From an uncultured bacterium (GTDB lineage: Bacteria; Cyanobacteriota; Vampirovibrionia; Gastranaerophilales; Gastranaerophilaceae): a DNA stretch of 47,872 nucleotides. The stretch is from positions 1-47,872 of the forward strand of contig CASELF010000083.1 of NCBI GenBank assembly GCA_949288725.1, read 5' to 3'. Shown one piece after another: positions 16,000 to 43,658 of the stretch (within the stretch, counting starts at the first letter, position 1; every line of letters starts with the position of its first letter). The translations under genes and the position numbers were made by a program. The notes under the pieces are model-generated. The model worked only from the letters and a program-made list of their open reading frames with translations. It had not been told where the DNA came from and did not search any database.

Positions 16000-16623
16000 C
16001 TATATAATCCCCTGTTTTGCCAAGTCTTTTTTTATTCTATCCAACCCCGTTTGTATAATTCTCGAAATTCTCGATTGTGAAATATTAAACTCTGTTGCTA
16101 TTTCTCTCAACTTCTTATCTTGGAAAAATTTACATTCAATAAATTCTCTTTCTCTTGGTGGCAGTTTTTTTATCGCTTCAAGAATTTCTGCTCTAAGTTC
16201 TGAAAATTCAATATTTTCTTCAGGTGTTTTATCTTTTGACTTAATCTGAGTTGGAATTTCGGTATCTTGAAGTTCATCTATTGATAAGATATTTTTATAA
16301 ACTTCTGCCCTCATCTCAACTTCATTTGTCATTTCATCTTCTTCAGATTGAGAAACTCTGTTTTTAAATGTGTACCATTTGTATCTTCTTCTAACTTCGT
16401 TTCGGATTGCCCATTTTATGGCTGTTGTTAAATATGAATTATTAAAACTTTCAGGATTACTTGACTTAAACAAAATATACAATGCGTGAGTGCCTATGTT
16501 TATAAGTTCTTCAAGTTCAATCAAGTGAGAATTTGAAAACTTTTGATATTCCACTTTCGCAATTATTTCAATTAAATCTTTGTATTTTTTAAGTTTAATA
16601 CTATCTTCAACTGACATTACCAT
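16000..16623 (-). CDS. Sigma-70 family RNA polymerase sigma factor (FliA-like candidate)
   Basis: 207 aa with two DNA-reading parts. Region 2 (about 37-85: ELEELINIGTHALYILF...TTAIKWAIRNEVRRRYKW) binds core polymerase and the -10 box. Region 4 (about 150-200: KKLPPREREFIECKFFQDKKLREIATEFNISQSRISRIIQ) is the helix-turn-helix that reads -35. A short linker (SIDELQD...) stands where FliA proteins have region 3. The layout recalls FliA/SigD/SigF-type factors, though it is slightly short. The flagellar genes and the sigma-28-type promoter in this window make a flagellar role attractive but unproven. The start has TTAGGA ahead of ATG-GTA-ATG. gcvPB follows after 3 bases. Confidence 0.9.
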   Translation of the reverse strand: MVMSVEDSIKLKKYKDLIEIIAKVEYQKFSNSHLIELEELINIGTHALYILFKSSNPESFNNSYLTTAIKWAIRNEVRRRYKWYTFKNRVSQSEEDEMTNEVEMRAEVYKNILSIDELQDTEIPTQIKSKDKTPEENIEFSELRAEILEAIKKLPPREREFIECKFFQDKKLREIATEFNISQSRISRIIQTGLDRIKKDLAKQGII

Positions 16624-21501: not shown

Positions 21502-22341
21502 TTAAGAACTGCTTACCATTTGCATTGCTTGTTGTAATAATTCTTTATTTGATGAAATCAATTTGTTTACAACTTCCATTTGCAATTTTGCCATTTTATA
21601 ATATGAAATGTTACCTTTAAAATCAGCATTTGAAAGTTCCAGTAATCCTGAACGGATTTCGCCGTTTCCTAAAACTGGTTTTCCTGATTCTTCGGTTTCT
21701 AAAAACCAACCGTCTTTATATTCATATAATCCTGCGGCATTGTGGAAGTTTCTTGTGGTAATTCTGTATAGTGGAACAACTTTTTTCCCGTTTTCTGCTT
21801 TACCAACAATAGTTCCATCATTTTTTATTTCGTATTCTTCGTATTTGCCCAGATATTTACCATTGTTAGGATCTATCCACATTTTTATATTTGTTGTTGG
21901 AATATCTAAAGCGCCGCCTTTTAGTGCTGTTTCTTGGTATAAATCAGAACTTATGGCTTTTGTGCCTTGCATAATTTCGCCTTTATCGTTCAGGATATAG
22001 CCTTGAACAGTATTACCGTTGCTTGCTCTATATACACCTTCTCCATCAAATGTAAATTCACCGAGCCTTGTGTAAACACTTTTTCCGTCAGGTGCCTTGG
22101 TTAAGAAAAATCCTTTTCCTTCTAAAAATACGTTATCCTCGGATGTACCGGGAGTTGATTTTCCTTGGCTCATCTTTTTGGCATAATCATCATTTATTGC
22201 TCCGCCGAGAAATGTCTTAAAACTAACTTGTTTTTCTTTAAATCCCGGGGTATAGACATTTGTCATGTTATCTGCTATTACATCCATCCAGTTTACGGTT
22301 GCATATTGCGTGTTAATAGCGGTTATAAAAGCATCATTCAT
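21502..22341 (-). CDS. Flagellar hook/basal-body rod protein (FlgE/FlgF/FlgG family)
   Basis: 279 aa. The N-terminus (AINTQYATVNWMDVIADNMTNVYTPGFKEK) is the conserved rod/hook helix and NxxTxGFK motif. The middle YTRLGEFTFDGEGVYRASNGNTVQGYI (about 90-117) is the shared FlgE/F/G beta element. The C-terminus (LLELSNADFKGNISYYKMAKLQMEVVNKLISS) is the terminal helix. These proteins polymerise outside the cell after export by the flagellar type III system. Its length is near FlgF/FlgG, but its place after fliK is where the hook gene flgE usually sits, so the exact member is uncertain. AGGAG stands 12 bases before the ATG. Confidence 0.88.
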   Translation of the reverse strand: MNDAFITAINTQYATVNWMDVIADNMTNVYTPGFKEKQVSFKTFLGGAINDDYAKKMSQGKSTPGTSEDNVFLEGKGFFLTKAPDGKSVYTRLGEFTFDGEGVYRASNGNTVQGYILNDKGEIMQGTKAISSDLYQETALKGGALDIPTTNIKMWIDPNNGKYLGKYEEYEIKNDGTIVGKAENGKKVVPLYRITTRNFHNAAGLYEYKDGWFLETEESGKPVLGNGEIRSGLLELSNADFKGNISYYKMAKLQMEVVNKLISSNKELLQQAMQMVSSS

Positions 22342-22362: not shown

Positions 22363-23688
22363 TTATTGCTGCTGTTGTCTGCTTCTTTGTTGTTCTTTTT
22401 GTTGTCTGCTGCCTCTGTTTGAGTAACTCAAATCTGAATATGGCAAATCATTTTCATTGAAGGTATTTTTTAATGTTTCAATATTATTTCTTATATACTG
22501 TTCAACGGCTTTGTCGTGCGGAATAAAGTTTGCTGCAATTGTTCCTTCTTTGTTTACACGTAAAACAACTGATACATTTTGGTCAAAATCTATTCTTAGC
22601 GGTTTATTATTTTCTCTGGATTCTGTTAGTGCATCAAGTAGTGCTTGTGAAACTTTGACATTTTTTTCAACTTCTTTTACATCGGCGCCTTTTTGAGTCA
22701 TTTCTGTTGCTTGCGCTGTTATGTTTTGAACTGTTATATTATCATCTGCATTTTGTGTCAAATTAATAAAGAAATCTGCATCTGACTGTGTCATTGAGAT
22801 TTTGTTTGAAGAATTCAAACTCATTGTTCCTACACTTTGAGTTGCTGCAATTCCTGCTGCTGCACCTGTTTTTATTGCTGATGTATTTATCATTTGTTGA
22901 ATATCATTGGATAATTCTGTATTATTTACATCAAAATTTGACAATGTATTATTAAAAATTATGTTACCGCTCAGAAGTTCATTTTCTTCTGTTTTGTGCG
23001 GGTCAACGTTGTAATTGTTTTCAACAGGCACTTGTTGTTGTACCATTGCTAAATTTTGTAAATCTTCAAGTGTGTTGTCGCTGTCTTTGTCATCTTTTTT
23101 GTTAGGGTTTTTCACTTTTTGAGCAAAAATATCCTGAGTTTTGTTTTTATTTGCAATGTTTTGCAGGTTCAACTCTTGTTCTGCCAACATATTTTGTTGT
23201 TGTAAAAGTTGTTGGTTTTCCAATGTTTCTGTTTGTTGTTGTTTTTTGTCAAAGGCTAGGATGTTATTTCTGTCTAGAAGTTGCTGATTTTTTATCATTT
23301 CAAGATTTTTTAATTCAGCTTCTTTTGAAAGATTAACATTATCTTTTATATTAGTATTGTTATCAACTTGGTCTTTTTTGTCAGTTACAACTTTTTTATC
23401 TTCTGCAATTTCAGGTTTATTTTCGTTTTTATCAACTTTGTTTTCTGCTGTAGGTTCTTTTGTTTCTGTAACTTTTTCTTCTTTTACTTCAGTCTTTTCT
23501 GTTGTTTTTGTTTCTTTATTTGATACTTCTTCTTTTGCTGTATCTTTTTCAGGTTCTGTTACTTTTTGCATTTCATCTTTAAATGATGTTTCAGATGTTT
23601 TTTTAGAACTTTCTGAACTTGATGATTTAGAAACTTGTGATGTTGATGATGAACTGTTTACAGATGTTAATGTTGTATTTATACTCAT
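22363..23688 (-). CDS. fliK: Flagellar hook-length control protein FliK
   Basis: 441 aa. FliK is exported through the flagellar system, measures the hook and triggers the switch to late substrates. The N-terminal two thirds are low complexity, rich in Ser, Thr, Lys, Glu, Asn and Gln, as in all FliK proteins. The folded C-terminal domain is at about 345-420 (LRIDFDQNVSVVLRVNKEGTIAANFIPH...IRNNIETLKNTFNENDLPYSDLSY). The last 17 residues are mostly Arg and Gln, an unusual basic tail. It follows fliJ by 13 bases and precedes the hook/rod gene by 21. Confidence 0.85.
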   Translation of the reverse strand: MSINTTLTSVNSSSSTSQVSKSSSSESSKKTSETSFKDEMQKVTEPEKDTAKEEVSNKETKTTEKTEVKEEKVTETKEPTAENKVDKNENKPEIAEDKKVVTDKKDQVDNNTNIKDNVNLSKEAELKNLEMIKNQQLLDRNNILAFDKKQQQTETLENQQLLQQQNMLAEQELNLQNIANKNKTQDIFAQKVKNPNKKDDKDSDNTLEDLQNLAMVQQQVPVENNYNVDPHKTEENELLSGNIIFNNTLSNFDVNNTELSNDIQQMINTSAIKTGAAAGIAATQSVGTMSLNSSNKISMTQSDADFFINLTQNADDNITVQNITAQATEMTQKGADVKEVEKNVKVSQALLDALTESRENNKPLRIDFDQNVSVVLRVNKEGTIAANFIPHDKAVEQYIRNNIETLKNTFNENDLPYSDLSYSNRGSRQQKEQQRSRQQQQ

Positions 23689-23701
23689 TTTTATATACCT
23701 T

Positions 23702-24169
23702 CTACTTTTGATTGTCCTCTAACTCTTCTTCTATAGCCTTGTCTTGAGTTTTTTTAAAGAATCTTGTGACACCTAATTCTGAGAATTGTTTTAATTCTGC
23801 TGCTTTTTCTTCTGCCAAATAGATTTCTTTATTCTTTTCTTTGTGTTTTTCAAGAACCTTTACGGCTTGTTCACATTTTACGAGTTTTTGAACTTCCTCG
23901 TCGAGTTTTTTCTGTAACTCCTGTCTTTTTTGTTCCAGTTGTTCGGCTTTTTCCCACAGATGTTGTAAAAAATTGTCGTATGTTTCATACATCATAGGGT
24001 CTGCAGCCCGCATTCCTTGTTTTGTGTCCAGAATGTCTTGGTTATTTTTTTTGATTTCGTTTTCGGCTTGAGTTACTGCCTGTTGCGCTTTTTGAACTCT
24101 TGAACGTTGTTCTTCTCTTTGGTTTATTCTAAAGTCCAAAACTTTTTGTAATCTGTACCGAAATGGCAT
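23702..24169 (-). CDS. fliJ: Flagellar export chaperone FliJ
   Basis: 155 aa, almost wholly coiled coil. It starts with the family signature FRYRLQKVLDFRINQREEQ, followed by heptads of Gln, Glu and Lys to the end. FliJ links the FliI ATPase to the export gate FlhA, like the gamma subunit of ATP synthase. fliI is not upstream: the gene opens the operon fliJ-fliK-hook/rod and is separated from the S1 gene by a terminator. The ribosome-binding site (GAAAGAG) is weak. No clear sigma-28 promoter is visible upstream. Confidence 0.85.
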   Translation of the reverse strand: MPFRYRLQKVLDFRINQREEQRSRVQKAQQAVTQAENEIKKNNQDILDTKQGMRAADPMMYETYDNFLQHLWEKAEQLEQKRQELQKKLDEEVQKLVKCEQAVKVLEKHKEKNKEIYLAEEKAAELKQFSELGVTRFFKKTQDKAIEEELEDNQK

Positions 24170-40737: not shown

Positions 40738-40888
40738 AATAAATTCCTACCTTTTCTACTTTTCGAACTTCCCTTTATATAAAAAAACTTTCGGTGTTGG
40801 GTTATTGTCTTTTTTTTATATTCACGCTTCATAAAATTTTACATAATCTTGCTAGCAAATTAATGTTATATTGTGTTTTATTATAGGT

Positions 40889-41728
40889 ATGGTAAGTGTA
40901 ATTGATATAAATAATTATTCAAATTACAATCAAAGGACTCAAAATTATTGCAATCCATTGAGAGGGGTTGCTTCTTATTGCGATTATCAGGATATTGGAA
41001 ATCCATATTCTAAAAATAATAATGAAAATGTAAATAAAACAATTGCTGCAGCCGGAATATTGCAAGTTGTTTCTATTGCTTTACAGAAAGCCTCTAAATG
41101 GTGTGGAAATAAACTTATGAGAGGCAAGGAATTTACAACATTTGAAAATGTGCAAAAGGTTGCAAATTCAATGCTAAAAGATAACAAACTTAATATAGAT
41201 GTTCATTTCATCAATCCGAATAATATAAATAAATTTTCTAACTCATTAAGAAAATCCTTAATTCCTGTTGCCAGAGGAGAAAATGCATTTTATATGGATT
41301 CTTTGAAGTTAGCAGTTGCGCCGGAAAAGAAACCTTCTTTAATTTTGCACGAATTAGGTCATGCAATAAATGCTTCTAAGGGTAAGTTCTTAAGATTTAT
41401 GCAAAAATCCAGAGCCTATAGTGCTTATGTTCCTACTGCAATATTTATTGCAAACAATGCCTTCAAAAATAGTGGTGCTCATTCTGATTTTATAGAGAAA
41501 AATGCCGGTGTAATTGGATTTTTGTCTTTCTTGCCAACAATTATAGAAGAGGGATTGGCATCTTTAAGAGGAGTGAATGCGGCAAAGAAAGTTCTTGGTA
41601 AAACTGTTAGTTTGAAAGCCTTAAAACGCAATTATTTTACTGCTTGGTTAACTTATTTGATTGCCGGAGTTGGTATAGGAGTTGCATCCAAATTGACTGT
41701 GCTTGAAGGTAAAACTTCTAATAGATAA
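40889..41728 (+). CDS. Zincin-like protein with HELGH motif, unknown family
   Basis: 279 aa. The sequence LILHELGHAIN puts the zinc motif HExxH at residues 154-158. IIEEGLASLRG (Glu220/Glu221), 62 residues later, offers the third ligand, as in gluzincin-type metalloproteases. Two hydrophobic stretches, one near 195-215 and one at the C-terminus (about 245-268), suggest membrane contact. There is no signal peptide; the first 50 residues are Asn/Tyr-rich. I use the ATG at 40889 instead of the TTG six codons earlier. No proper ribosome-binding site is present, and a TTTACA-N17-TAATGT promoter (40838-40866) would give a leader of about 16 bases. The substrate is unknown. Confidence 0.75.
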   Translation: MVSVIDINNYSNYNQRTQNYCNPLRGVASYCDYQDIGNPYSKNNNENVNKTIAAAGILQVVSIALQKASKWCGNKLMRGKEFTTFENVQKVANSMLKDNKLNIDVHFINPNNINKFSNSLRKSLIPVARGENAFYMDSLKLAVAPEKKPSLILHELGHAINASKGKFLRFMQKSRAYSAYVPTAIFIANNAFKNSGAHSDFIEKNAGVIGFLSFLPTIIEEGLASLRGVNAAKKVLGKTVSLKALKRNYFTAWLTYLIAGVGIGVASKLTVLEGKTSNR

Positions 41729-42195: not shown

Positions 42196-42197
42196 AT

Positions 42198-42224
42198 TAA
42201 AGATTATGCCAACAATGCCGAATA
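42198..42224 (+). promoter_or_regulatory. Sigma-28 (FliA)-type promoter
   Basis: TAAAGATT (42198-42205), exactly 11 bases, GCCGAATA (42217-42224). The FliA consensus is TAAAGTTT-N11-GCCGATAA, so 7 of 8 and 6 of 8 positions match, with ideal spacing. Start of transcription would be near 42231, 27 bases before the ATG. Confidence 0.7.
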
Positions 42225-42257
42225 TTAAGATATACGATTGAAAGGATAATTGGGACG

Positions 42258-43658
42258 ATGGGACTTTCGGCATCACAAGCAAGATTATTATCAATTACTG
42301 CCAGACTTACTTCAAATGAGTATGAATCTCAGCAGATATCCAATGCAAAAATGAGATTAGCGACTCAATCAGAAGAAGCAAGTCAGGAGTATATTGCTGC
42401 ATTGAATTCTACTCAATTGCAGATGACTACTTATGATGCACAGGGTTCTGCGATTACGACACCTTTAACTGCTAATGCTTTATATCAATATTCAGATTTA
42501 AAGAATCAATATGCTTTAGTGAATACAAGCGGACAAATTTTGATAAGTAATTCAGATGCGGAAAACTTCAAAAATTCACAAACTCTTGATGAATTTTTGG
42601 AATGCTACGGAATTACAAAGGAATACAAATCTGCAGCATTGGAAGAAAATGCCTTAAAACTATCATCAAATTCTACAGATACATATCCTGATGGAACTTT
42701 AGTTGGTGGAGTTTACGATTATTATGAAGAATGGATAAATGCAATTAACGAATTAAAATCTACAGGCATGTATGAAAATGAAAACGGTGATGTTGTTACT
42801 GTTGATGAGGAAACATATCAAAATGAAAAGATTTCAGCATTTGCAGGATATAACAATGCCTTAGCAGCCTATGACGATATTTTAATTAAATATAATGCAA
42901 ACTTAGTTGATGATGGAGTAGTAACAACATATTTAGATAAATTATCAGAAGCAAAAGCATTATATTCAAATTACACAACTTATGACCAATGGGTAAAATC
43001 AAAATTAGCATACGTTGATACAACAGATGCAAATGGTAACAATGTAAAGACTTTTTCAGAATTATATAAAAATGCAGAAAAATATTATGAAGTATTAGCC
43101 GATTATAATGCAGAGGCAGAAAATTTAGGCTGTGAATCAATTGAAGATACATATACATATACAGATGATACAAAAGCACAATGGTACACAAATCTATGGT
43201 ACAGATTGAACGGTTCATCATCAGATAAATCAGCAATGGGTCAGTATGGAACGAATTATGCAATTTTAGACAACAAATTAGCATCAAGCGCAAAATGGAT
43301 ACAAGATGCATTAAAACAAGGCGCAATATCTTTAGAAAAAGCAGCATACGAACCATCAACAAATGAAATTAATGATTTAGATAATCCTTTAAGTGTAACT
43401 TTAAAAGGAATAAGTTGGACATCAACAATATATTCTTCATGTTCAGATTTTACAGAATTGGAAGATGAATCAGCAATAGCAAAAGCAGAGGCTGAATATA
43501 CAAGAAAGAATAACGAAATAGATGCCAAAGACACAAAATATGAAAATCAGATAAAAGCATTAGATACAGAGCACAATGCATTGCAAACGGAATATGAATC
43601 AGTTCAAACAGCATTGAGCAAAAACATAGACAGATCATTCAAGACTTTTAACGGATAA
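42258..43658 (+). CDS. Unknown 466-aa protein, candidate late flagellar or surface protein
   Basis: Not a family I can name. The first ~65 residues (MGLSASQARLLSITARLTSN...QISNAKMRLATQSEEASQEY) and the last ~70 (AIAKAEAEYTRKNNEIDAKD...IDRSFKTFNG) are heptad-like helices. The middle is acidic, Tyr/Asn/Thr-rich and probably variable. Helical ends around a variable middle is the plan of flagellins and hook-associated proteins, though typical flagellin motifs are missing. There is no signal peptide or membrane segment, as expected for substrates of the flagellar export system. A sigma-28-type promoter lies 34 bases upstream. Flagellar function is inference. Confidence 0.7.
   Translation: MGLSASQARLLSITARLTSNEYESQQISNAKMRLATQSEEASQEYIAALNSTQLQMTTYDAQGSAITTPLTANALYQYSDLKNQYALVNTSGQILISNSDAENFKNSQTLDEFLECYGITKEYKSAALEENALKLSSNSTDTYPDGTLVGGVYDYYEEWINAINELKSTGMYENENGDVVTVDEETYQNEKISAFAGYNNALAAYDDILIKYNANLVDDGVVTTYLDKLSEAKALYSNYTTYDQWVKSKLAYVDTTDANGNNVKTFSELYKNAEKYYEVLADYNAEAENLGCESIEDTYTYTDDTKAQWYTNLWYRLNGSSSDKSAMGQYGTNYAILDNKLASSAKWIQDALKQGAISLEKAAYEPSTNEINDLDNPLSVTLKGISWTSTIYSSCSDFTELEDESAIAKAEAEYTRKNNEIDAKDTKYENQIKALDTEHNALQTEYESVQTALSKNIDRSFKTFNG

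Follow-up and report, generated by a model that had tools for sequence, protein, structure and literature searches.

A multi-copy family of sigma-28-controlled, axial-type proteins in Gastranaerophilales and its putative export by a flagellar secretion apparatus without a rotor

The closest described counterparts of the protein analysed here are the flagellar axial proteins (FliC, FlgL/HAP3, FliD, FlgE/FlgG), with which it shares the absence of a signal peptide, paired helices at its two ends, a variable centre and a sigma-28 promoter. The protein, of 466 amino acids (aa), is encoded by an open reading frame (ORF) at positions 42258..43658 of the + strand of a 47,872-nucleotide contig (CASELF010000083.1, analysed as a whole and hereafter called the window) from assembly GCA_949288725.1, a metagenome-assembled genome of the Gastranaerophilales (2.2 Mb, 96% complete). 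It belongs to a family that differs from axial proteins in having its own N-terminal signature, MGxxASQAR, in lacking sequence-profile similarity to them and in being present where flagellin and motor are absent. We put at roughly 0.66 the probability that the members of this family are under sigma-28 control, are of the axial type and serve as substrates for a flagellar secretion apparatus that has no rotor, and the data suggest a repurposed secretion or surface-filament system.

Three further systems invite comparison. Buchnera possesses hook-basal bodies without a filament, which are regarded as an export remnant of the endosymbiont; here too flagellin is lost while basal body and export apparatus are kept, but the Gastranaerophilales system is separate and divergent, coexists in relatives with a true flagellum and has a late gene family of its own. 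In Campylobacter, the genes of non-flagellar proteins exported by the flagellum are under sigma-28 control. Export of the Campylobacter proteins Cia, FspA and FlaC through the flagellum requires a minimum structure that includes the hook (PMC5223770). The route through a flagellar apparatus would be the same for the MGxxASQAR family, whereas Campylobacter has a full flagellum and is motile, and its exported proteins do not group into a single multi-copy family in which the helical ends are conserved. The non-flagellar type III secretion system (T3SS), or injectisome, evolved from the flagellum (PMC3459982) and likewise uses the flagellar export apparatus without a rotor; in contrast to it, the window genome keeps the flagellar rod genes FlgB/C/F/G, and its FlhA scores higher as FlhA (695, cut-off 772) than as the injectisome export gate SctV (585 bits, cut-off 692), passing neither cut-off, so that membership among injectisomes by an SctV-type gate was rejected. 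In the literature searched, we found no description of a T3SS in Gastranaerophilales or Vampirovibrionia. Earlier work interpreted the partial flagellar gene complements of gut Gastranaerophilales as genome reduction still under way (PMC3787301, PMC4040986); the genomic evidence presented below says, rather, that these sets would make up a conserved system in its own right, which has a family of late genes to itself and occurs even alongside a complete flagellum.

The gene is preceded on the + strand by TAAAGATT (42198-42205), 11 spacer bases and GCCGAATA (42217-42224), followed by 33 bases and the ATG at 42258. These positions, on which a preliminary description of the window had based its claim of a promoter, were re-read and are exact. 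The -35 (TAAAG) and -10 (GCCGATAA) boxes of the sigma-28 (FliA/SigD) regulon are present at the correct spacing, and the site as a whole, TTAAAGATT-N11-GCCGAATA (42197..42224, + strand), is of the FliA type, both of its boxes recurring before the paralogues and before the family genes of relatives. A likely ribosome-binding site, GAAAGGA (42240..42246, + strand), lies 11 bases 5' of the ATG, and the same box is found before most paralogues in the genome. A lone motif site has no significance by itself: with up to three mismatches to the consensus, two occurrences were counted in the window against 1.19 expected, which is chance level, and a stricter form gave 13 sites in the genome, close to the 11 of the reversed control. 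However, six of these 13 sites lie directly upstream of six full-length family genes, the 466-aa gene among them, and the motif is kept across relatives; the near-perfect motif is therefore a real promoter site, judged by conservation rather than by single-site statistics.

Is the promoter a property of the whole family? When the strict motif was defined as the regular expression TAAAG-N13-16-GCCG, it was found in 71 of 110 upstream regions of family genes, against 0.04 expected in shuffled sequences and against 4 of the 581 other ORFs compared alongside. Its distance from the start codon, counted from the beginning of the motif, is 48-84 bases in each of the 71 cases except one, where it is 105. 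A trained matrix detects the promoter in 107 of the 110 regions, but it was trained and tested on identical sequences, and the independent figure is that of the regular expression. In a non-redundant set, 30 of 48 family genes have the strict motif upstream, compared with 8 of 678 other ORFs. Since two of these eight are true flagellin genes of relatives, we call the motif the FliA-type promoter of this lineage. Thus, the promoter is kept upstream of homologues, as would be looked for under the preliminary description.

Several other genes share this promoter. An HD-domain (HD-GYP-like) gene carries it in two genera (L034:1562-2797 and L169:1858-3114), and two genes of no known family in the window genome lie directly behind strict sigma-28-type promoters, encoding proteins of 178 aa (L191:2887-3423, contig C98) and 525 aa (L192:3075-4652, contig C27). 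The window itself encodes a sigma-70-family factor (16000..16623, - strand) whose best specific subfamily is FliA/WhiG (TIGR02479, 66.6 bits, below the cut-off of 189.6); it is one of two candidates for the cognate sigma, the other being encoded on contig C102.

For the 466-aa protein, neither Pfam nor NCBIfam gives a family at the curated cut-off, and the sequence contains no signal-peptide-like stretch (its most hydrophobic 15-mer averages 0.78). It is acidic (isoelectric point 4.3), with 50 D/E against 23 K/R residues in its middle, and its conservation falls from 0.6-0.85 at the ends to about 0.2-0.3 in between. The N-terminal helix (residues 2-49, MGLSASQARLLSITARL..., 42261..42404, + strand) is the most conserved segment, with a predicted local distance difference test score (pLDDT) of about 93. 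The C-terminus is nearly as conserved; its helix (residues 404-465, ...LDTEHNALQTEYESV...NIDRSFKTF, 43467..43652, + strand) is paired with the N-terminal one in fold alignments. The acidic middle (residues about 121-300, 42618..43157, + strand) combines low conservation with low model confidence. The picture drawn earlier of a protein of no known family, without signal peptide and with helical ends around an acidic, variable-looking middle, holds in each of these points.

In the AlphaFold model of the 466-aa protein, the helices 2-49 and 404-465 reach a pLDDT of about 92-95, while the middle is weak. In the model of a 351-aa paralogue (pLDDT 84.5), a beta-rich middle is flanked by helices 2-47 and 275-350. 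In models and alignments alike, the N- and C-terminal helices pair and enclose the central region, as in axial proteins. The ten highest-ranking Foldseek matches of the 351-aa model are all flagellar, and with a second aligner run against the PDB about 30 of the 50 rows listed are flagellin, FliD, FlgL, FlgK, hook or rod proteins. The model aligns best to flagellar axial proteins, with Z up to 9.1, a level (about 9) that can be common for long helices. These matches suggest, but do not prove, a relationship with axial proteins. Flagellin is not among the listed fold hits of the 466-aa model, which we do not count against the relationship because the middle of this model is poorly predicted; a search of the PDB by sequence returned nothing meaningful. 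Membership in the flagellin family (PF00669) by sequence was rejected, as no Pfam flagellin match was found in the 466-aa protein, A3 or A4 and profile-profile comparison was negative. The axial-like architecture ascribed to the protein is thus upheld by its helical ends, its variable centre and the dominance of flagellar axial proteins in the fold search with the 351-aa model, but by sequence it is not a flagellin.

The preliminary description had presented the protein as particular to its lineage. It is no isolated oddity, however: the gene is one of at least nine family genes in its genome, where we found six other full-length paralogues and fragments of more at contig edges. The paralogues start with MG[LM][AS]ASQA[RK] and are conserved over the N-terminal ~60-100 and the C-terminal ~70 residues, whereas their middles differ both in length and in sequence. 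Members occur in all 143 listed genomes of the taxonomic family f1, commonly in 7-15 copies, and no stop codons were found inside the family matches listed. This is an undescribed, multi-copy family with a flagellar axial-like plan and a flagellar-type promoter. Near-identical copies cause the assembly to break within them: contigs C59 and C60 of the window genome have their first 229 bases in common (98.7% identity), which code for a family C-terminus, and then diverge, and contigs C28 and C49 end within family N-termini. Two other genomes contain divergent, head-to-head pairs of family genes whose 5' ends are 97% (G187, L193:4174-8041) and 90% (G057, L071) identical; in the G187 pair the similarity extends to the 3' ends (92% identity), whereas the middles are for the most part unrelated. 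Gene conversion acting on the ends, or an exchange of the middles, would be expected to leave such a pattern and is a possible explanation.

A large number of paralogues, 300-838 aa long and with middles unrelated to one another, would also be expected of secreted effectors or adhesins, that is, of non-structural proteins whose ends serve only as export and chaperone signals and whose variable middles exert their effect on the host or on cells nearby, and the export of non-flagellar proteins by the Campylobacter flagellar system offers a precedent (PMC5223770). We consider this rather unlikely: the constant part consists of two long paired end helices, which is the plan of axial proteins, and an N-terminal signal is usually enough for effectors, yet in this family the C-terminus is nearly as conserved.

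The window genome encodes FlhA, FliE, FliF, FliH, FliI, FliJ, FliK, FlgB, FlgC, FlgF and FlgG; flagellin and FliD were searched for in it and neither was found, nor were a FliG motor domain or MotB. Three of the components lie on the - strand of the window: a hook/rod protein of the FlgE/F/G family (21502..22341; TIGR03506, 120.6 bits, over the cut-off; PF22692), a FliK-like hook-length control protein (22363..23688; PF02120, E 9e-5, 22.6 bits, below the cut-off of 29.8) and a FliJ-like protein (23702..24169; PF02050, E 2e-5, 25.3 bits, below the cut-off of 28.4). Between fliF and fliH, at the position of fliG, there is a gene for a 339-aa protein (L043:16849-17868, contig C102) without a FliG motor domain, whose sole Pfam hint is MgtE_N (E 0.01).

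A flagellated relative (G174) makes it possible to place this apparatus. It carries two FlhA proteins, one of which, the flagellar FlhA, passes the NCBIfam FlhA cut-off (847 against 772), whereas FlhA of the second type misses it (695-699) and also misses that of SctV. The FlhA of the window genome is 80% identical to the second protein and 36% to the flagellar one; FliI is likewise 80% identical between the window genome and the second system, which is encoded in a cluster fliF-339aa-fliH-flhA-fliI with an orthologue of the 339-aa gene at the same place. Judged by these identities, the FlhA of the window genome is orthologous to the second, non-flagellar-type FlhA of the relative. In G174, the HD-domain gene that carries the FliA-type promoter is located ~2 kb upstream of this second cluster. 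These comparisons also bear on the published view cited above, in which genomes without filament, cap, junction and rings (PMC3787301; PMC4040986) would hold the flagellar remains of a decaying system and the family genes would be relics. Such an origin is very improbable when both FlhA and FliI retain 80% identity from one genus to another, the second system coexists with a complete flagellum in a relative, and the family is present in every listed f1 genome in the copy numbers given, with no stops among the matches listed.

Family genes are also physically linked to the apparatus: in L080, a single stretch contains two of them together with fliE and fliF. At L023:7508-10260 and L080:2095-4844, a family gene (351/352 aa) is followed by genes for proteins of 270-273, 90-100 and 110 aa, all of no known family, and the L080 copy of this conserved run adjoins fliE-fliF. 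The window genome further encodes a soluble 494-aa FlhA cytoplasmic domain (FlhA-C) with a short extra N-terminal region and no membrane part (L044:7579-9063, contig C75). This protein is kept in all but one of 144 sampled f1/f2 genomes; as a universal partner of the family it was rejected, being restricted to f1/f2, whereas family members are present in f4, f9 and f10 as well.

Co-occurrence was surveyed in 240 genomes of the class Vampirovibrionia. The family is present in 162 of them, all with an FHIPEP (FlhA-family) match, and in none of the 54 genomes without such a match. In one family-positive genome (G197), the only FHIPEP match is a soluble FlhA-C-like protein, probably owing to incomplete assembly. 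Flagellin was detected in 67 genomes and FliG_C and MotB in 66 each, the latter two in identical genomes. All three are missing from 104 of the 162 family-positive genomes, including that of the window, and in these the family and an export gate therefore exist without filament, rotor or stator. Hence, of the expectation that homologues occur only with flagellar genes, the association with FlhA stands, while that with flagellin, FliG_C and MotB fails in these 104 genomes, and the protein is not a late component of a motile flagellum, as first proposed. The preliminary description had itself named homologues spread widely in genomes without flagella as evidence against it; that is what we found, and the word flagellar has to be dropped, whereas export of the flagellar type survives because the flagellin-less genomes keep a dedicated flagellar-type export apparatus. 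As to the type of export, the earlier proposal of a flagellum-exported protein is probably right. That the proteins are instead cytoplasmic or envelope coiled coils which have nothing to do with export and simply belong to a stress regulon of the FliA (or a SigF-like) type is very improbable: an HD-domain regulator shares the promoter and the nearest sigma family is ambiguous, yet the family nests perfectly within FlhA-positive genomes, is linked to fliE-fliF in L080 and yields flagellar-axial fold matches.

FlhA without the family was found in 24 genomes (groups f5, f6 and f7). The f6/f7 genomes (e.g., G006, G011, G012, G018) have FlhA but no flagellin, FliG_C, MotB or MGxxASQAR family, and may possess another rotor-less flagellar-type system. 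Genome G169 (same taxonomic family, genus g17) has one residual flagellin gene and no FliG_C, MotB or flagellar-type FlhA; it seems to have recently lost its flagellum and kept the second system.

On the reading that we favour, the 466-aa protein would be one of at least nine paralogues that serve as substrates for a second flagellar-type T3SS, one that has neither rotor nor flagellin and would be standard equipment of the Gastranaerophilaceae. From the observed promoter, a FliA-type sigma factor would transcribe the family genes late, as it does flagellin elsewhere; the proteins, lacking a Sec signal, would be exported via FlhA/FliI and the FlgB/C/F/G rod and hook; their end helices would pair as in axial proteins and attach either to the rod/hook or to one another; and the variable middle would be displayed outside the cell in a filament, a tip or a released surface protein. 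More specifically, and only tentatively, the Gastranaerophilaceae may build a non-rotating appendage on the dedicated apparatus, with a filament or tip made of this diversified non-flagellin family, in which the helical ends assemble and the middles are exchanged or diversified to give a variable surface structure in gut bacteria.

Several observations weigh against substrates of this kind. The fold matches of the 351-aa paralogue are weak (Foldseek best E 0.08), the 466-aa protein's own model retrieves generic coiled coils only, and profile-profile comparison (hhalign) of the family with the flagellins of relatives stays below 1% probability. Moreover, the full-length subclass of 351/352 aa (L023, L080) carries a sigma-70-like TTGACT...TATAAT region instead of the FliA-type promoter, and most flagellin genes sampled in relatives have no motif close upstream. 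Both candidate cognate sigma factors in the genome fall below the FliA/WhiG cut-off, and their nearest family is ambiguous between SigBFG and FliA/WhiG. Finally, one GTDB-style family dominates the co-occurrence, which thus reflects few independent evolutionary events.

If true, the proposal would give an uncultured, widespread gut lineage related to cyanobacteria an undescribed export machine or surface appendage, and it would show, in an independent instance, that a flagellum has been converted to a use other than motility. The proposal would also provide a handle for further components: all proteins that start with MGxxASQAR and are encoded behind a TAAAG-N-GCCG promoter are candidates for export.

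Elsewhere in the window, an ORF at 40871-41728, without a Pfam match above the cut-off, contains an HELGH motif typical of zinc metalloproteases.
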